Source of the DNA: Haloplanus sp. GDY1
GTDB taxonomy: Archaea > Halobacteriota > Halobacteria > Halobacteriales > Haloferacaceae
Assembly: GCF_023703775.1 (NCBI RefSeq)
Contig: NZ_CP098514.1
Coordinates: 2,887,998 to 2,951,997 of the forward strand
Length of the DNA: 64,000 nt
Direction of reading: 5' to 3'
Below the pieces are notes generated by a model. That model was not told the origin of the DNA, ran no database searches, and saw nothing but the letters and a program-made list of their open reading frames with translations. The position numbers were made by a program, and so were the translations under genes. Position 1 is the first letter of the stretch; every line of letters starts with the position of its first letter. Shown one piece after another: positions 1 to 54,127 of the stretch.

Positions 1-193
1 CGAACACCTCGCCCGAGACGCCCAGGTCGTCGAGCATCGACTCCATCTCCCCCGTCGGGCAGTGGTCCTCGGTCACCAGCACGAACTCCAGCCGGTCCGT
101 GTCGACCCCGTGGCGCTCGGCGTTGTCGACGTAGGATCGCACGCATTCGTACTCCCTGATCGTCGGGACGATGACGCAGATGTCCTCGCTCAT
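1..193 (-). CDS. Reversibly glycosylated polypeptide (alpha-1,4-glucan-protein synthase)-like protein, N-terminal part
   Basis: Only the first 64 codons are in the window; the gene runs off the left edge. The protein starts MSEDICVIVPTIREYECV and continues with a beta-strand/loop pattern (FVLVTEDHCP) that I associate with the RGP/UPTG family, nucleotide-sugar mutases or transferases of GT75 that occur in haloarchaea next to cell-surface glycan genes. The VPTIRE start and the VTED motif are the basis; the catalytic centre is outside the window. A palindrome resembling a DtxR-type operator sits 13 nt upstream of the ATG. It could instead be an ordinary GT2 glycosyltransferase. Confidence 0.5.
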   Translation of the reverse strand, partial: MSEDICVIVPTIREYECVRSYVDNAERHGVDTDRLEFVLVTEDHCPTGEMESMLDDLGVSGEVF

Positions 194-205
194 TGCCCGC
201 TTTTC

Positions 206-221
206 TTTAGGCCCACCTAAA
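206..221. promoter_or_regulatory. Palindromic operator candidate TTTAGG-CCCA-CCTAAA (DtxR/IdeR-like)
   Basis: Perfect 6-bp inverted repeat with a 4-bp spacer in the divergent promoter region between the gene at the left edge and ppk. The half site TTAGG/CCTAA is the half site of DtxR/IdeR/SirR metal-dependent repressors. Position, 13 nt upstream of the minus-strand ATG, would cover the transcription start of a leaderless transcript of that gene. Regulation by iron or manganese is inference from the motif. Confidence 0.45.
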
Positions 222-242
222 ATATCTGTCGTTCCGTGCCGA

Positions 243-251
243 CGATATATA
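243..251 (+). promoter_or_regulatory. Putative TATA box of ppk
   Basis: The AT-rich motif GATATATAC stands out in a GC-rich context. Transcription would begin near position 272. This places the GTG at 263 upstream of the transcript and argues for the ATG at 359 as the ppk start, with an unusually long leader of about 85 nt. Confidence 0.4.
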
Positions 252-358
252 CTTCTCGATAGGTGTTCGTAGGGGACATACCAACCGCTTTGTGCCGCTG
301 TCGCCACCCTCCCACCGACTCGCTCGCCGACGGCGGCGACGTCGCCGACACCACACCC

Positions 359-2683
359 ATGCCCGGACCCGACGACACCGACGGCCCCGACCTCGACGAC
401 GCCGAGTTCTACCTGAACCGGGAACTGAGCCACCTGGAGTTCCAGAAGCGCGTCCTCCACGAGGCGCTCGACGACCGGACGCCGCTCCTCGAGCGGGTGC
501 GCTTTCTCGGCCTCTTCACCAAGAACCTCGACGAGTTCTTCATGAAGCGCGTCGGGGGGTTGAAACAGCAGATCGACGCGGGCGTCACCGACCCGACGGT
601 CGACGGCCGGACCCCCCGCGAGCAGTGGGCCGAGATCCTCGAGACGACCGGTCCCATGTTCGGCCGCCAGACCGACTGCTACCGCGACGTGGTTCGGCCC
701 GCCCTCGCCGAGGCGGGGATCGAGATCGTCGACCACGAGGACCTGACCGACGCGGAGCGCGACCGGATGCAGGACTACTTCGAGGAGTCCGTGTTGCCGA
801 CGCTGACGCCGCTGGCGTTCGACCCGGCCCACCCCTTCCCCTTCATCTCCAACCTCAGCCTCTCGCTCGGCGTCTACGTCCGGCACGACCCCGGCGAGGA
901 CCCGATCTTCACCCGCGTGAAGGTCCCGCAGAACCGCCCGCGACTCGTCCCCCTCGATGAGGGGTCGCGCTACGTCCTCCTCGAGGACCTCATCCGAGCG
1001 CATCTCGACTTGCTGATGCCCAACGTCGAGGTCGTCGACACCGCCCTGTTTCGCATCACGCGCAACGCCGAGGTCCGACACAACCAGGAGGTCGCCGAGG
1101 ACCTGATCGAGGCCATCGAGGAGGTGATCGAACAGCGGCGCTTCGCCACCGCCGTCCGCCTGGAGATCGGCGACGACGCCCCCGAGGAGATGGTCGACCT
1201 CCTGCGCGAGCAACTCGACCTCTGCCCGGAGGAGGTGGTCCACCGCTCCGGACCCCTCGACTACCGGGACTTCATGACGCTCTCGGACCTCGATCGCCCC
1301 GACCTGAAACGCGAGCCCTGGTCGCCGCTCCCCCATCCCCGGTTCGCCGAGGGGCCGGCCGGCGAGGTGACCGTCCAGGGGAGCGACCTCTTCGACGAGA
1401 TCGCCCGCGACGACGTCCTCCTCCATCACCCGTATCACTCCTTCGAGGGGACGGTCCAGCGCTTCCTCGACGCCGCCGCCAACGACCCCGACGTGTTGGC
1501 GATCAAGGCCGCCATCTACCGCACGGCGAGTGACTCGCAGGTGATCCAGCGGCTGATCGACGCCGCCGACAACGGCAAGCAGGTGGCGGTGATGGTCGAA
1601 CTCAAGGCCCGCTTCGACGAGCAGAACAACCTCCAGTGGGTGCGCAAACTGGAGGAGAACGGCATCCACGTCGCTTACGGCACGGTCGGGCTGAAGACCC
1701 ACACCAAGACCGCGCTGGTCGTCCGCGAGGAGGCGGACGGCGTGAAACTCTACTCCCACGTCGCCACGGGTAACTACCACTCCGAGACGGCGAAGGGGTA
1801 CGTCGACCTCGGCCTGTTGACCGCCGACCGCGACGTCGGGCAGGACCTCGTGACGGTGTTCAACTTCTTCACCGGCCCCTCGCTGGACGAGGAGTTCCGC
1901 AAACTGCTCGTCGCGCCCGTCACGATGCGAAAGCGGTTCACGGAACTGATCCGCCGGGAGGCCGACCACGCCCGCGCCGGCCGCCCCGCCCGCATCGTCG
2001 CGAAGATGAACGCGCTGGAGGACCCCGCCATCGTCGAGGAACTGTACCGCGCCTCGATGGCCGGCGTCGATATCGACCTGATCGTCCGCGACATCTGCCG
2101 CCTGCGGCCGGGGATCGAGGGGATCAGCGACACCGTCACCGTCCACTCCGTCGTCGGTCGCTTCCTGGAACATTCGCGGATCTACTACTTCGAGAACGGC
2201 GCGGGGGCGGAGAGCCCGACGGAGGCCGGCGACGGCCGCGCCCCCGAGTACTACCTCGGGTCGGCCGACTGGATGACCCGCAACCTCGACCACCGGGTCG
2301 AGGCCGTCGCCCCCGTCACCGACCCCGACGCCCGCGAGCAACTCCGGTTCGTCCTCGAGGTGATGCTGAACGACAACCGCACCCGCTGGACGATGAACGC
2401 CGACGGGAGCTACGACCAGCGGACGCCGGGCGACGACCCCGAGTGGGCCACCCAGTCCGTCCTGATGGACGCCGCCCGCCGGGCCCACGACCGGGACGAC
2501 GAGCGCGGGATCGACACCGACCACCCGGCGAGTCCCGGCGACCTGCTCGTCGCCCCTGAGTCGGCGGACGAGGCCGAGGCGGGACCGACCGACGGGCGCG
2601 ACGCCGGCGGCGCCGACCCGGAGACGGCCGACGGGCGCGCCGGCGACGGCGTGGACGCCCCCGCCGTCGAGGACGAGGACTAA
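359..2683 (+). CDS. ppk1: Polyphosphate kinase 1
   Basis: Reversibly transfers the terminal phosphate of ATP to inorganic polyphosphate. The 774-residue protein shows the PPK1 order: N domain (FYLNRELSHLEFQKRVL, about residues 18-35), head domain (HPFPFISNLSLSL), and two phospholipase-D-like catalytic domains. The two family histidines are present: His448 in GLKTHTK and His467 in YSHVATGN, 19 residues apart as in E. coli His435/His454. ATG at 359 is chosen over the in-frame GTG at 263, because the 32 extra residues look non-homologous and the TATA-like box lies just upstream. The C-terminus carries about 60 extra Asp/Glu/Ala/Gly-rich residues beyond the usual family end. The stop codon overlaps the ancestral stop of the convergent helicase. 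Confidence 0.95.
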   Translation: MPGPDDTDGPDLDDAEFYLNRELSHLEFQKRVLHEALDDRTPLLERVRFLGLFTKNLDEFFMKRVGGLKQQIDAGVTDPTVDGRTPREQWAEILETTGPMFGRQTDCYRDVVRPALAEAGIEIVDHEDLTDAERDRMQDYFEESVLPTLTPLAFDPAHPFPFISNLSLSLGVYVRHDPGEDPIFTRVKVPQNRPRLVPLDEGSRYVLLEDLIRAHLDLLMPNVEVVDTALFRITRNAEVRHNQEVAEDLIEAIEEVIEQRRFATAVRLEIGDDAPEEMVDLLREQLDLCPEEVVHRSGPLDYRDFMTLSDLDRPDLKREPWSPLPHPRFAEGPAGEVTVQGSDLFDEIARDDVLLHHPYHSFEGTVQRFLDAAANDPDVLAIKAAIYRTASDSQVIQRLIDAADNGKQVAVMVELKARFDEQNNLQWVRKLEENGIHVAYGTVGLKTHTKTALVVREEADGVKLYSHVATGNYHSETAKGYVDLGLLTADRDVGQDLVTVFNFFTGPSLDEEFRKLLVAPVTMRKRFTELIRREADHARAGRPARIVAKMNALEDPAIVEELYRASMAGVDIDLIVRDICRLRPGIEGISDTVTVHSVVGRFLEHSRIYYFENGAGAESPTEAGDGRAPEYYLGSADWMTRNLDHRVEAVAPVTDPDAREQLRFVLEVMLNDNRTRWTMNADGSYDQRTPGDDPEWATQSVLMDAARRAHDRDDERGIDTDHPASPGDLLVAPESADEAEAGPTDGRDAGGADPETADGRAGDGVDAPAVEDED

Positions 2684-5006
2684 TCCGCCTCGCTCAGCGA
2701 TTCGAGCAGGACGACGGCGGGGTCGGGTGCCAGCGGCTCGTTCGCGTTCCCGCAGTGTGGCGACTGGACGCAGGCCGGACAGCCGTCGGCACAGCCACAG
2801 CCGTCGATCATCCGGGCGGTCCGGGGGACGAGCGGGCGGTCCGGGGGACGAGCGACTCGAAGCGCGCGTAGCCGCCGCGGGCGAGCCCCACGCCGCCGGG
2901 GTAGCCGTCGTAGACGAAGACGGTGGGCGCGCCGGTGTGGGCGTGATGCGGCGTCGAGAGGCCGCCGACGTCCGCGCGGTCACAGAGCAGGTGGAGGGGA
3001 AACAGGGAGATCAGGCCGTGTTCGGCCGCGTGGATGCCGCCGTCGAAGTCGCCGACCGCCCGCATCTCGGCCTCCACGTCCGCCGGGACGGTGAAATACA
3101 GCGCCGTCGTCGACAACGTCGTCTCGGGGAGGGTGAGCGTTTCGCGGCCCAGCGTCTCGCCCCGACCCGCGTCCCGGCGCTCGTAGCCCGTCACCCGCTC
3201 CGTGACGGTCACGTCCGCGAGGTGGACGCCGACGTCGGGGCGGGCCGAGAGCGCCGTCGACTCCCGGTCGCGCTCGACCGCGATCGACTTCTCGGTCAGC
3301 ACCCGGGTGTAGTAGTCCGCCCACGTCGCCTGCAGGGTCGCCACGTCCCGGTCCAGATCCAGGTCGGTCACCTCGTAGGACTGCCCCTGGTGGTGGTAGA
3401 TCGCGCCCGGGTGGGCGTCCCGGAGGGCGTCGCCGAAGCCGAGGGTGGCGATCACGTCGCCGTCGGCCAGCAGGTCCACCTCCCGGTCGTCGGCGCCCCG
3501 GAGGGACGTCGCGTGCTGCGGGCTCCGGTCGCCGGCGTGGGTCCAGCGGACCCCCTCCGCCGTCTCGCGGCGCTCCAGGCAACCGGCGGCTTCCAGGTCG
3601 GCCACGACGTCGGCGAACCCCTCGCCGAAGTGGGCCTCGTCCGCCCGGGACAGCCAGTTCTCCGCCGCCGCCGCGGCGACGTGGTCGGGGAGCAGGTGTT
3701 CGTTCCCCGGGTCGACCGTCGCCCGCTCCGGGTCGCCCTCGAAGAGGGTCTCGGGGTTGGCCATCAGGTACTGGTCGAGCTGGTCCTCGCCGGCGACGAG
3801 GGCGACGAGCGCGGGGTCGGCCCCCCGGCCCGCCCGGCCCGCGCGCTGGAAGGCCGACATCCGGGTGCCGGGGTAGCCGTCCAGCAACACGGCGTCGAGT
3901 CCCCCGACGTCGACGCCGAGTTCGAGGGCGCTGGTGCTCCAGACGCCCCGCACGCGCCCGTCGTGGAGGCCGTCCTCGACCTCGCGGCGGCGCTCGTCGC
4001 GCAGCGAGGCCTGGTACGCCTCGATCCGTCCCGCCAGGTCCCGCTCGCCACGCTCCCGGAGCGCGTCGGCGCTCTCGGTGGCGTAGCGCTCGGCGGTCTG
4101 GCGCGCCCGGGTGAAGGCGAGAGTCTGGTGGCCCGCGGCCACGAGGTCGGTAAAGAGGCGCTTCGTCTCGACGTGGCTCGACCGGCGGCGGCCCGCCCCC
4201 CGGTCGCCCTCGTGTTCGGGCGGGTTCCAGAGGAGCCAGTGGCGCGGCCCCCGGCCGCTCGCGTCCGTCTCGACGAGCGCGAACCCGGATTCGGGGCGGC
4301 CCGTCAGGCGCGCCGCGTGGTCGACGGGGTTGCCGACGGTGGCCGAACAGCAGACGAACGCCGGATCGCTCCCGAAGCGCTCACAGAGGCGCGCCAGCCG
4401 CCTGAGAACGAGCGAGACGTGGGTGCCGAAGACGCCGCGATAGCCGTGCATCTCGTCGATCACGACCAGCTCCAGCGACGAGAACAGCCACTCCCACAGC
4501 CGGTGGCCGTGAGGCAGGAGGCCGTAGTGGAGCATGTCCGGGTTCGAGAGCAGGACCGTCGGCCGCCGGTCCCGGACGTCGCGTTTCTCGGCTTTCGAGA
4601 GGCGACCGGTGTAGGTGTCGACCGAGACGCGACTGCCGAAGCCGAGGCCGCGGGCCAGGTCGGAGAGGCTCTCGGCCTGGTCCGCGATCAGGGCGTTCTG
4701 CGGGCCGAGATACAGCGTTCGGCCGCCGTCTTCCATCGCCCGCTCGAACGCCGGCACCGTGTACGCGAGGCTCTTGCCGCTCGCCGTCGGCGTCGCCAAC
4801 ACCGCGTCCCGCCCGTCGCGGACGGCCTCGATGGCGTCGACCTGGTGGCGATAGAGGCGGTCGACCCCCCGATCCGCCAGCGCGTCGGCCAGCCGCGGTT
4901 CCAGGTCGCAGTCGGCGTAGACTGGGTCGCGTCCCGGCAGGACGCGGTGGTCCGCGACCCGTCCGTCCTCGGCGCGTTCCCGGAGTCGGTCGACGACGTC
5001 GTCCAC
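2680..5006 (-). pseudogene. DEAD/DEAH-box helicase with DUF1998 (MrfA/YprA-like), C-terminus frameshifted
   Basis: Superfamily 2 helicase: Walker A TPTASGKS near residue 72, DEMH box near 183, CSAT motif III, QRAGRAGR motif VI, then the DUF1998 region. B. subtilis MrfA (YprA), a DNA-repair helicase, is the best known relative and needs a C-terminal four-cysteine zinc site. As sequenced the frame runs from ATG 5006 to a stop at 2808 (732 aa) and ends in the non-homologous tail RSSPGPPG. Removing one copy of a perfect 20-bp tandem repeat (2813-2852) restores the frame through to the stop at 2680 and recovers the cysteine cluster CGCADGCPAC...PHCGN. So the gene is either a recent frameshift mutant lacking its zinc site, a slippage-switchable gene, or an assembly error. 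Confidence 0.85.
2813..2852. repeat. Perfect 20-bp tandem duplication inside the helicase gene
   Basis: Two adjacent identical copies, 2813-2832 and 2833-2852 (unit CGGGCGGTCCGGGGGACGAG on the plus strand). Twenty is not a multiple of three, so the second copy shifts the helicase frame just before its C-terminal cysteines. Confidence 0.97.
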
Positions 5007-5077
5007 ACCCCTGCTCCGGCCGGCCCGACCAAACCGGTTCCGGTCGCGTTTTGGCGCTCGCCGCCGACCTCACCCAC

Positions 5078-5500
5078 ATGGACGCCGACGGCGGCACCTA
5101 CACCCTCGTCCTCGAGTTGCCCCGGGCGGTCGACGTCACGGTCGGCGCGCTGGGCCGGCACCGCTTCCCCGCGGGCGCCTACGCCTACACCGGGAGCGCA
5201 CTCGGGAGCGGCGGCTTCGCCCGCGTCGACCGACACCGCCGGGTCGCGGCGGGGGAACACGACACCCGGCACTGGCACGTCGACTACCTCACCGGCCACC
5301 CGGCGACCGGCCTGGTGACCGCCGTCACCAGCGCGGGCGTCGACGCCGAGTGTGCCGTCGCCACACGCCTCCCCGAGGGACCGGTCGCGGGGTTCGGCGC
5401 CTCGGACTGTGGCTGTCGCTCCCACCTCGCCGCGGGGCCGACGGCCGAGGAACTGGTCGGAACCGTGCGGTCGGCACACCGAGCGGCGTCGAAAAGCTGA
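5078..5500 (+). CDS. DUF123 / GIY-YIG-like nuclease-fold protein
   Basis: 140-residue protein matching the DUF123 family (PF01986), often found fused to or near endonuclease III and carrying a GIY-YIG-like fold. Seen: TYTLVLELP start, YAYTGSALG motif, the HWHVDYL segment typical of the family, and a late GFGASDCGCRSHL with clustered cysteines. ATG at 5078 is preferred over the in-frame TTG at 5051. Biochemical activity of the family is not established. It diverges from the helicase by about 70 bp. Confidence 0.85.
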   Translation: MDADGGTYTLVLELPRAVDVTVGALGRHRFPAGAYAYTGSALGSGGFARVDRHRRVAAGEHDTRHWHVDYLTGHPATGLVTAVTSAGVDAECAVATRLPEGPVAGFGASDCGCRSHLAAGPTAEELVGTVRSAHRAASKS

Positions 5501-52247: not shown

Positions 52248-52322
52248 TCCGCGAACGGTTCACACCCGGCGAGTTCGGCCGCCTTCCGCCGGTACTTGTC
52301 CGTCGAACCCCTGGGGACGGTG

Positions 52323-52988
52323 ATGGAGTTCGACGACGTCATTCACACTCGACGATCCGTCCACCAGTATTCCGACGCCGACATCGACGAGGAGACGCTG
52401 TACGACCTCTTCGAGGACGTGCGCTTCGCGCCCTCCTCGTTCAACCTCCAGCCGTGGGAGTTCCTCGTGGTGCGTGGCGATGACCTCGACCGCCTGCAGT
52501 CGGTCGCCTACGGCCAGGAACACGTCACCGACGCCGCGGCCGCGGTGGTGGTCCTCGGGACGCTGGACCCGAGCGATCACGCCGAGCGCGTCACGCGGGA
52601 CCTGCTGGAGAAGGGCTACCTCCCCGACGAGGAGGCGGCCGAGGCCCGCCTCGACAGCGTCGAGGGCCTCGCGAACGCCGACGAGGAGACGCGCCGCGTC
52701 TGGACGGTCCAGAGCTGTACCCTCGCGACCATGGCGCTCATGCACGCCGCCTGGAACCGCGGCATCGCCTCCTGTCCGATGGGCGGCTACGACGCCGACG
52801 CCGTCCACGAGGAGTTCGACGTGCCCGCCGACTACGAACCCGTCTGTCTCGTCACGCTCGGCTACCCCGAGGACGAGGCCGCCGACATCGAGCGACCGCG
52901 GAAGTTCCGCCGGCCGGCCGATGAGTTCGTCCACCTCGACGGCTTCGACCCGGTCGCCCGCGAGTCGCCCGCGACCGCCGACGACTAG
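52323..52988 (+). CDS. Nitroreductase-family FMN oxidoreductase
   Basis: 221 aa. RRSVHQYSDADI, FAPSSFNLQPWEFLVV and CPMGGYD are the FMN-binding blocks of the family; VCLVTLGYPEDEA is the closing strand. ATG 52323 (MEFDDVIHTRRS). Substrate unknown. Its stop overlaps the convergent KaiC-like gene by 4 bp. Confidence 0.9.
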   Translation: MEFDDVIHTRRSVHQYSDADIDEETLYDLFEDVRFAPSSFNLQPWEFLVVRGDDLDRLQSVAYGQEHVTDAAAAVVVLGTLDPSDHAERVTRDLLEKGYLPDEEAAEARLDSVEGLANADEETRRVWTVQSCTLATMALMHAAWNRGIASCPMGGYDADAVHEEFDVPADYEPVCLVTLGYPEDEAADIERPRKFRRPADEFVHLDGFDPVARESPATADD

Positions 52989-54127
52989 AAGATGTTCGCC
53001 TGCCGGTAGACGCTGAGCCCCTCGTTCGTGATCTCGTAGGGCTTGGTCTCCCGGGAGTGGTTCGCGTCGCGTATCTTCTGTATCTCGACCGCCAGCCGCG
53101 TCTCCTGGAAGTCCGACGCGCGGACGTACTGGAGGACGAACACCGCGTCCGCCAGATACTCGATGATCCCGTACCGCGAGTTGTAGGGGTTGTCGCCGCT
53201 GGCCTCGCTGGTCACGAGCGTCGTCACGCCCGCCTCCTTGAGCGAGCGGGTGAACTGGTACACCTCGCTCCGCCGGTCCGACGGGTGGTCGTACATCATC
53301 TCCAGGAGCGACACGGAGTCGAGGACGAGACGGTCGGCGCCGAACTCCTTCACCAGGTCCGGCAGGTCGCTCCGGATGCTGGCCAGACTGTTCGCCATCT
53401 CGACCGGATCGAGGTGGACGACGGCGAGTCGTCCCTCGTCGGCGTACTCCGCGAACGACCAGCCCTTCTCCCGGGCGGTGTCGTAGATGCGGTCCGTGCT
53501 CTCCTCCAGGGTCACGTAGACGCCCCGCTTGCCGTCGGCCAGCGCCCGGTTGAGAAACTGGAGGCCGAAGGTCGTCTTCCCGGTCCCCGCCGACCCGATG
53601 ACCGAGATGAGCGAGCGCCGCGGGACGCCCCCGAGGATCATGTCGTCGAGGCCTTCGATCCCGAGGTCGATCCGATCGATCGCCGACTCGAACTCCTCGT
53701 CGTCGAACGGGTCGGCGGACCCGCCCTCGGGGCCGCCACCCGGACCGCCGCCCGGACCCTCCGGCCCCGAACCGAACGCCCCACCGCCGCCGACCCCGCC
53801 CGCGGGATCCGGCGCGTTCTCGAAGGCGCTCGCGAAATCCTGGTCGAACGGCGAACCACCGCCGTCGTCCTCGGTGCCCTCGTCGCCGAGTCCGGAGAAC
53901 GCGTCGCTGGGGGGGTCGGTCGGGACGTCCGCCTCCTCGGTCCCGGCCGACTCCGCCCCGGTCGCCGACCGGTCGTCGGCCTCCCCGTCGGTCGCCGACT
54001 GGTCGTCGGTTTCCCCGTCTGTCGCCGACCGGTCGTCGGTTTCCCCGTCTGTCGCCGACCGGTCGTCGTCGGCCTCCTCGTCCGGCTCACCGACGGCTCG
54101 TTCGAACCAGTCGTCGTCCTCGCTCAT
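52985..54127 (-). CDS. KaiC/RAD55-like ATPase with acidic repeat N-terminus
   Basis: 380 aa. C-terminal RecA-fold: Walker A GSAGTGKTT at 177-185, Walker B LVLDSVS, and the sensor VTSEASGDNPYNSRYGI. The first about 140 residues are disordered: four 10-residue repeats based on DDRSATDGET (21-60) and a Gly/Pro-rich linker. Haloarchaeal KaiC-like singles occur in signalling; role unknown. Convergent with nitroreductase; divergent from NAD kinase. Confidence 0.87.
   Translation of the reverse strand: MSEDDDWFERAVGEPDEEADDDRSATDGETDDRSATDGETDDQSATDGEADDRSATGAESAGTEEADVPTDPPSDAFSGLGDEGTEDDGGGSPFDQDFASAFENAPDPAGGVGGGGAFGSGPEGPGGGPGGGPEGGSADPFDDEEFESAIDRIDLGIEGLDDMILGGVPRRSLISVIGSAGTGKTTFGLQFLNRALADGKRGVYVTLEESTDRIYDTAREKGWSFAEYADEGRLAVVHLDPVEMANSLASIRSDLPDLVKEFGADRLVLDSVSLLEMMYDHPSDRRSEVYQFTRSLKEAGVTTLVTSEASGDNPYNSRYGIIEYLADAVFVLQYVRASDFQETRLAVEIQKIRDANHSRETKPYEITNEGLSVYRQANIF
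53948..54067. repeat. Four tandem 30-bp repeats coding for DDRSATDGET
   Basis: In-frame minisatellite encoding residues 21-60 of the KaiC-like protein. The first two repeats encode identical peptides, the third and fourth have substitutions (DDQSATDGEA, DDRSATGAES). Confidence 0.85.

Follow-up and report, generated by a model that had tools for sequence, protein, structure and literature searches.

A helicase gene in a 64-kb stretch of Haloplanus DNA (hereafter the window; contig positions 2887998-2951997) carries an exact 20-bp tandem duplication that probably represents a real and recent loss-of-function frameshift, produced by ordinary mutation and not by a programmed switch. The duplicated unit, CGGGCGGTCCGGGGGACGAG, is present as two exact copies in tandem (Table 1). 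Comparison with relatives showed that it shifts the frame 43 codons before the end of the gene, leaving a predicted product that lacks the four-cysteine cluster of every close orthologue. An initial annotation had described the two perfect copies at 2813-2852, the early end of the two-copy frame, and a one-copy frame that runs through CGCADGCPAC to a stop overlapping that of ppk, and all of this was borne out. TRF places the repeat at 2813-2854 (period 20, 2.1 copies, 100% matches), and the helicase product ends in VPRTAR-SSPGPPG-stop, with seven residues after the frame shift. The alternative frame from 2811 to 2680, MIDGCGCADGCPACVQSPHCGNANEPLAPDPAVVLLESLSEAD-stop, comprises 43 intact codons, and its TAG (2682-2680) shares two bases with the TAA of ppk (2681-2683).

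Table 1. Features of the helicase locus, in positions of the window
Feature	Position	Strand	Basis
Polyphosphate kinase ppk1, convergent; TAA overlaps the helicase tail TAG by 2 bases	263-2683	+	domain matches
Out-of-frame 43-codon tail with four-cysteine zinc cluster (CGCADGCPAC), open from ATG to TAG	2680-2811	-	sequence, relatives
ATGA: premature TGA (2810-2808) overlaps the tail Met codon (2811-2809); possible termination-reinitiation site	2808-2811	-	sequence; function putative
Truncated YprA/MrfA-type helicase ORF, 732 aa: DEAD, Helicase_C, WHD_HRQ1, MZB positions 1-63 of 80	2808-5006	-	ORF and domain matches
20-bp tandem copy, 3´ copy on the coding strand, frame-shifting	2813-2832	-	sequence, TRF
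20-bp tandem copy, 5´ copy on the helicase coding strand, native frame	2833-2852	-	sequence, TRF
DUF123 gene, divergent from the helicase, conserved neighbour	5051-5500	+	domain match, neighbourhood comparison

The gene had been proposed to encode an MrfA-like DUF1998 helicase, and domain matches together with sequence and fold matches to 6ZNP agree that it is of the MrfA/YprA type, with a probable role in DNA repair. Both SF2 RecA domains are present in the product (RecA1, PF00270, 1.1e-25; RecA2, PF00271, 1.1e-10), and the HRQ1 winged helix is matched at 27.1 bits against a cut-off of 27. The product also matches the NCBIfam model TIGR03817 (DECH_helic) at 651 bits, below the curated cut-off of 874. 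By sequence, the only close solved relative is Bacillus subtilis MrfA/YprA (6ZNP, E 2.9e-123), and a full-length orthologue from a relative (L091) aligns with it through the cysteine cluster, HCPCHDGCPSC. Foldseek likewise returned 6ZNP as the best PDB match for the truncated product (E 1.4e-46) and for a full-length sister (6.5e-47), both from low-confidence models. The AlphaFold models are weak overall: the full-length sister reached a pTM of 0.56, with a C-terminal region that is mostly better predicted and a final helix at pLDDT 84-90, and the truncated product reached 0.36, with its last 30 residues at pLDDT 29-44.

That the duplication removes the zinc site, another proposal of the initial annotation, follows from the incomplete MZB match and from the four zinc-binding cysteines of MZB/DUF1998, which are absent from the product and lie out of frame at 2811-2680. 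Nine sister species of the genus have an orthologue (82-89% identity); in all nine the tail is in frame with its C4 cluster and MZB positions 1-80 are covered, and the window's product alone stops at 63. The cluster is also found in 61 of 62 further haloarchaeal ORFs, 58 by direct pattern match and three with a two-residue insertion. The exception, from the Halolamina pelagica CDK2 draft genome (L064), has a 1-bp frameshift upstream, at about 5050, which is either a sequencing error or a strain mutation; the same gene is intact in H. pelagica strain L084. Across the family, an MZB match is present in 145 of 148 genomes, and those listed reach position 80; Haloferax volcanii also has an MZB protein. 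A search of 147 related genomes, with up to three mismatches allowed, did not return the two-copy sequence; this pattern search is weak outside the genus, since the site diverges, and the cluster and MZB comparisons cover that point. None of the orthologous tails tested has a tandem duplication.

A chance origin of the duplication is excluded. In 64 kb of the window's composition 9e-7 (about 1e-6) exact 20-bp tandem pairs are expected, and 20 Markov shuffles gave offset matches of at most 11-14 nt, versus 22 in the real sequence.

The cysteine region had been described as intact, and the tail is indeed open and free of stops from 2811 to 2680; each of its residues recurs in one or more of the sisters. 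In comparison with L089, the nearest of them, dS is about 0.4, and dN/dS is 0.15 in the head of the gene and 0.19 in the tail, a value with little power at 43 codons. We estimate that neutral drift since the split would have produced about 19 amino-acid changes in the tail (half of the dS of 0.4, times about 95 nonsynonymous sites), and the tail differs from that of L089 at about seven positions, shared between both branches. An intact tail, a dN/dS like that of the rest of the gene and few changes relative to the neutral expectation all indicate that the duplication is young relative to the species split, or not real. Of the suggestion that the event is recent or reversible, the first half thus stands, with the same alternative of an artefact, and the second, in the sense of a reversible switch, found no support.

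To place the duplication in context, a 400-kb stretch around the site and a 400-kb stretch of a sister genome were screened for tandem duplications and frame changes. Exact tandem duplications with periods of 10-200 number 23 here, 18 of them multiples of three, and 15 in the sister stretch, 14 of them multiples of three. Among the five here that are not multiples of three, those of 22 bp and 46 bp are intergenic or nearly so, one of 11 bp is at an ORF end and one of 10 bp is near an ORF start; the 20-bp duplication is the only one to split a conserved domain. Frame changes were called in 7 of 214 orthologues from this genome; for the sister the figure was 5 of 215. Most of these calls resemble fusions of ORFs over a gene boundary. 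With calls about as frequent in the sister genome, there is no sign that this assembly is unusually prone to error.

Repeats elsewhere were also noted. An exact 11-bp tandem duplication, not a multiple of three, lies at 52953-52974, in the last bases of a nitroreductase-like ORF (52296-52988); this ORF and a convergent KaiC-like ORF overlap. At 53959-54068 an in-frame array of 30-bp repeats (3.7 copies, 93%) encodes DDRSATDGET-like units in the acidic N-terminus of an ORF (52985-54127, minus strand) that looks like a KaiC/RadA-type ATPase. Direct repeats of 46 bp, in about four copies, occur at G000:C1:2808533-2808722, in the window's genome, and at G008:C1:2469508-2469709; the units differ, and those in the window's genome sit at the junction of convergent genes.

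An artefact of assembly, polishing or sequencing, with the genome truly one-copy and the helicase intact, would also account for a tail without decay, as expected of an intact gene; the initial annotation had named this alternative, and we regard it as unlikely while giving it real weight. The local sequence has a high GC content and contains runs of five G, the duplication is found in no relative, and the Halolamina draft offers a frameshift in the same gene that another strain of the species does not have. Against this, the site lies 120 kb from the end of a 3.01-Mb contig, and frame-change calls are not clearly commoner than in the sister genome. Reads easily span a 20-bp repeat, and the usual sequencing errors are homopolymer errors, not 20-bp duplications. 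The initial annotation had also suggested that repeat slippage could act as an on/off switch of the helicase; as a rival reading, slippage between one and two copies would be maintained by selection. Any two-copy tandem repeat can in principle collapse to one copy, and reversible microhomology-mediated tandem duplications inactivate ssp1 in fission yeast (reviewed in PMC13207564); our literature search found no measured collapse rate for a two-copy 20-bp repeat. However, the repeat has two copies only and occurs at this site in no relative, the microhomology flanking the unit is 2 bp (CG), as at about 20% of junctions by chance, and no unusual hairpin was found at the repeat (z 1.36). The gene is moreover of a repair type. 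A contingency locus should have several repeat copies, a repeat tract in relatives and variants, and none of these is seen. A selected switch has no support here, and we consider it highly improbable.

The premature stop overlaps the Met codon of the tail as ATGA, which raises the question of whether the split gene still works: ribosomes would stop at TGA and restart at ATG, and a 43-aa zinc-tail peptide would dock on the 732-aa helicase, such that the duplication would be partly tolerated. In Haloferax volcanii, genes overlapping in this way proved strictly coupled in translation, and reinitiation there did not need an SD motif (PMC6728339). DISARM has its helicase and DUF1998 parts encoded separately, as DrmA and DrmB (PMC12458937, PMC9142583). 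The gene tree groups the window's helicase with L089, L090 and L092 (bootstrap 90-100), and the codon at the tail Met position is CTG in these three and in the outgroup L012, CTC in L010, and Met in the other six of the nine sisters. The tail Met is unlikely to be a retained ancestral residue, since the tree puts Leu in the three closest sisters of the supported clade; the ATG was probably gained, or regained, on the window's branch. Yet Leu/Met exchange is common at this codon in the genus, and the overlap could easily have arisen by coincidence. No SD motif stands out clearly, the break, in contrast to the DrmA/DrmB split, interrupts a single small domain, and a recent event is enough to explain why the tail is preserved. 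For the ATGA overlap, coincidence is the simpler reading; a zinc-tail peptide is conceivable, and a split gene that still works strikes us as improbable. More improbable still is a coupled pair in which the tail would complete the helicase in trans, with activity set by the efficiency of reinitiation and the one-piece form regained by copy loss. Even as a coincidence, the ATGA offers a simple test case of whether reinitiation can partly rescue an in-gene frameshift.

Loss of function is our preferred reading. A single 20-bp tandem duplication probably arose recently in this Haloplanus lineage, through slippage during replication or through an event at short homology. Since the cluster closes the DUF1998/MZB 'canopy' domain, the product would be misfolded or inactive, and the gene would be on its way to becoming a pseudogene, or else a weak allele; helicase function is likely to have been lost. 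Loss of the C4 cluster need not abolish every activity, since Dpd defence helicases lack it wholly and yet are members of defence systems (PMC12458937). In DrmB the DUF1998 domain is a hinge, with metal sites that may serve a structural purpose or sense redox state (PMC9142583). Such a loss may be tolerable because the gene looks dispensable: no close orthologue was found in three relatives, G007 (only a 38% relative), G036 and G123, and these appear to have lost it. On this view the locus is yet another case of recent frameshift, in an archaeal helicase of repair type that is conserved yet dispensable, and it cautions that a two-copy tandem repeat should not be called a switch by default. Provided that the duplication is real, it gives a natural allele with which to probe the role of the zinc cluster of DUF1998 helicases in archaea.

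A second MrfA-type helicase was considered as a backup. The other strong MZB protein of the genome (C4, 1808 aa) is of the Druantia DruE type and is no obvious substitute. This DruE1-like Druantia defence helicase, with its MZB domain, is encoded at L158:4632-10058 (G000:C4), on a 107-kb contig of the window's genome, where the adjoining ORF matches DruD weakly. At L159:1012-9817 (G000:C1:979012-987817) lie four clustered genes that look like a YprA-type defence system: they include a methyltransferase and a DpdJ/DrmA-like helicase, and the last ORF matches MZB weakly.

The divergent DUF123 gene accompanies each of the nine sister orthologues and is present at 30 of 90 loci; it is possibly a functional partner of the helicase. 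Convergent ppk accompanies five of the nine. Long open frames run antisense to ppk and the helicase (2-2983, minus strand, 994 aa; 2727-5318, plus strand, 863 aa). We rejected both as genes, as such frames are expected from high GC at third positions.

Among known systems, the helicase is closest to the MrfA/YprA SF2 helicases, represented by B. subtilis MrfA (6ZNP/6ZNQ/6ZNS), with which it shares the same domain order, about 32-34% identity and the best fold match. It differs in that the window's product lacks the four-cysteine cluster and in that its neighbors are ppk and DUF123, with no MrfB-type exonuclease gene among them; a 'YprA only' class exists (PMC12458937). Typical of the MrfA/YprA family are 3'-5' helicase activity and a role in mitomycin repair. 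Simple-sequence contingency loci, which vary by slipped-strand mispairing, likewise have a coding tandem repeat whose length is not a multiple of three, but the repeat in the window has two copies, is not conserved, and lies in a repair-type rather than a surface gene. The ATGA-coupled pairs of H. volcanii (PMC6728339) share the overlap of stop and start, here at the truncation point, whereas the two frames here come from one broken gene, whose tail would be a putative peptide. The nearest described phenomenon is that of fission yeast ssp1, in which microhomology-mediated tandem duplications are reversible (PMC13207564). The window's site differs in its flanking homology of only 2 bp and its haloarchaeal host, reversion being known for the yeast only, and resembles it in that a short, exact, two-copy duplication in coding sequence leads to a premature stop.
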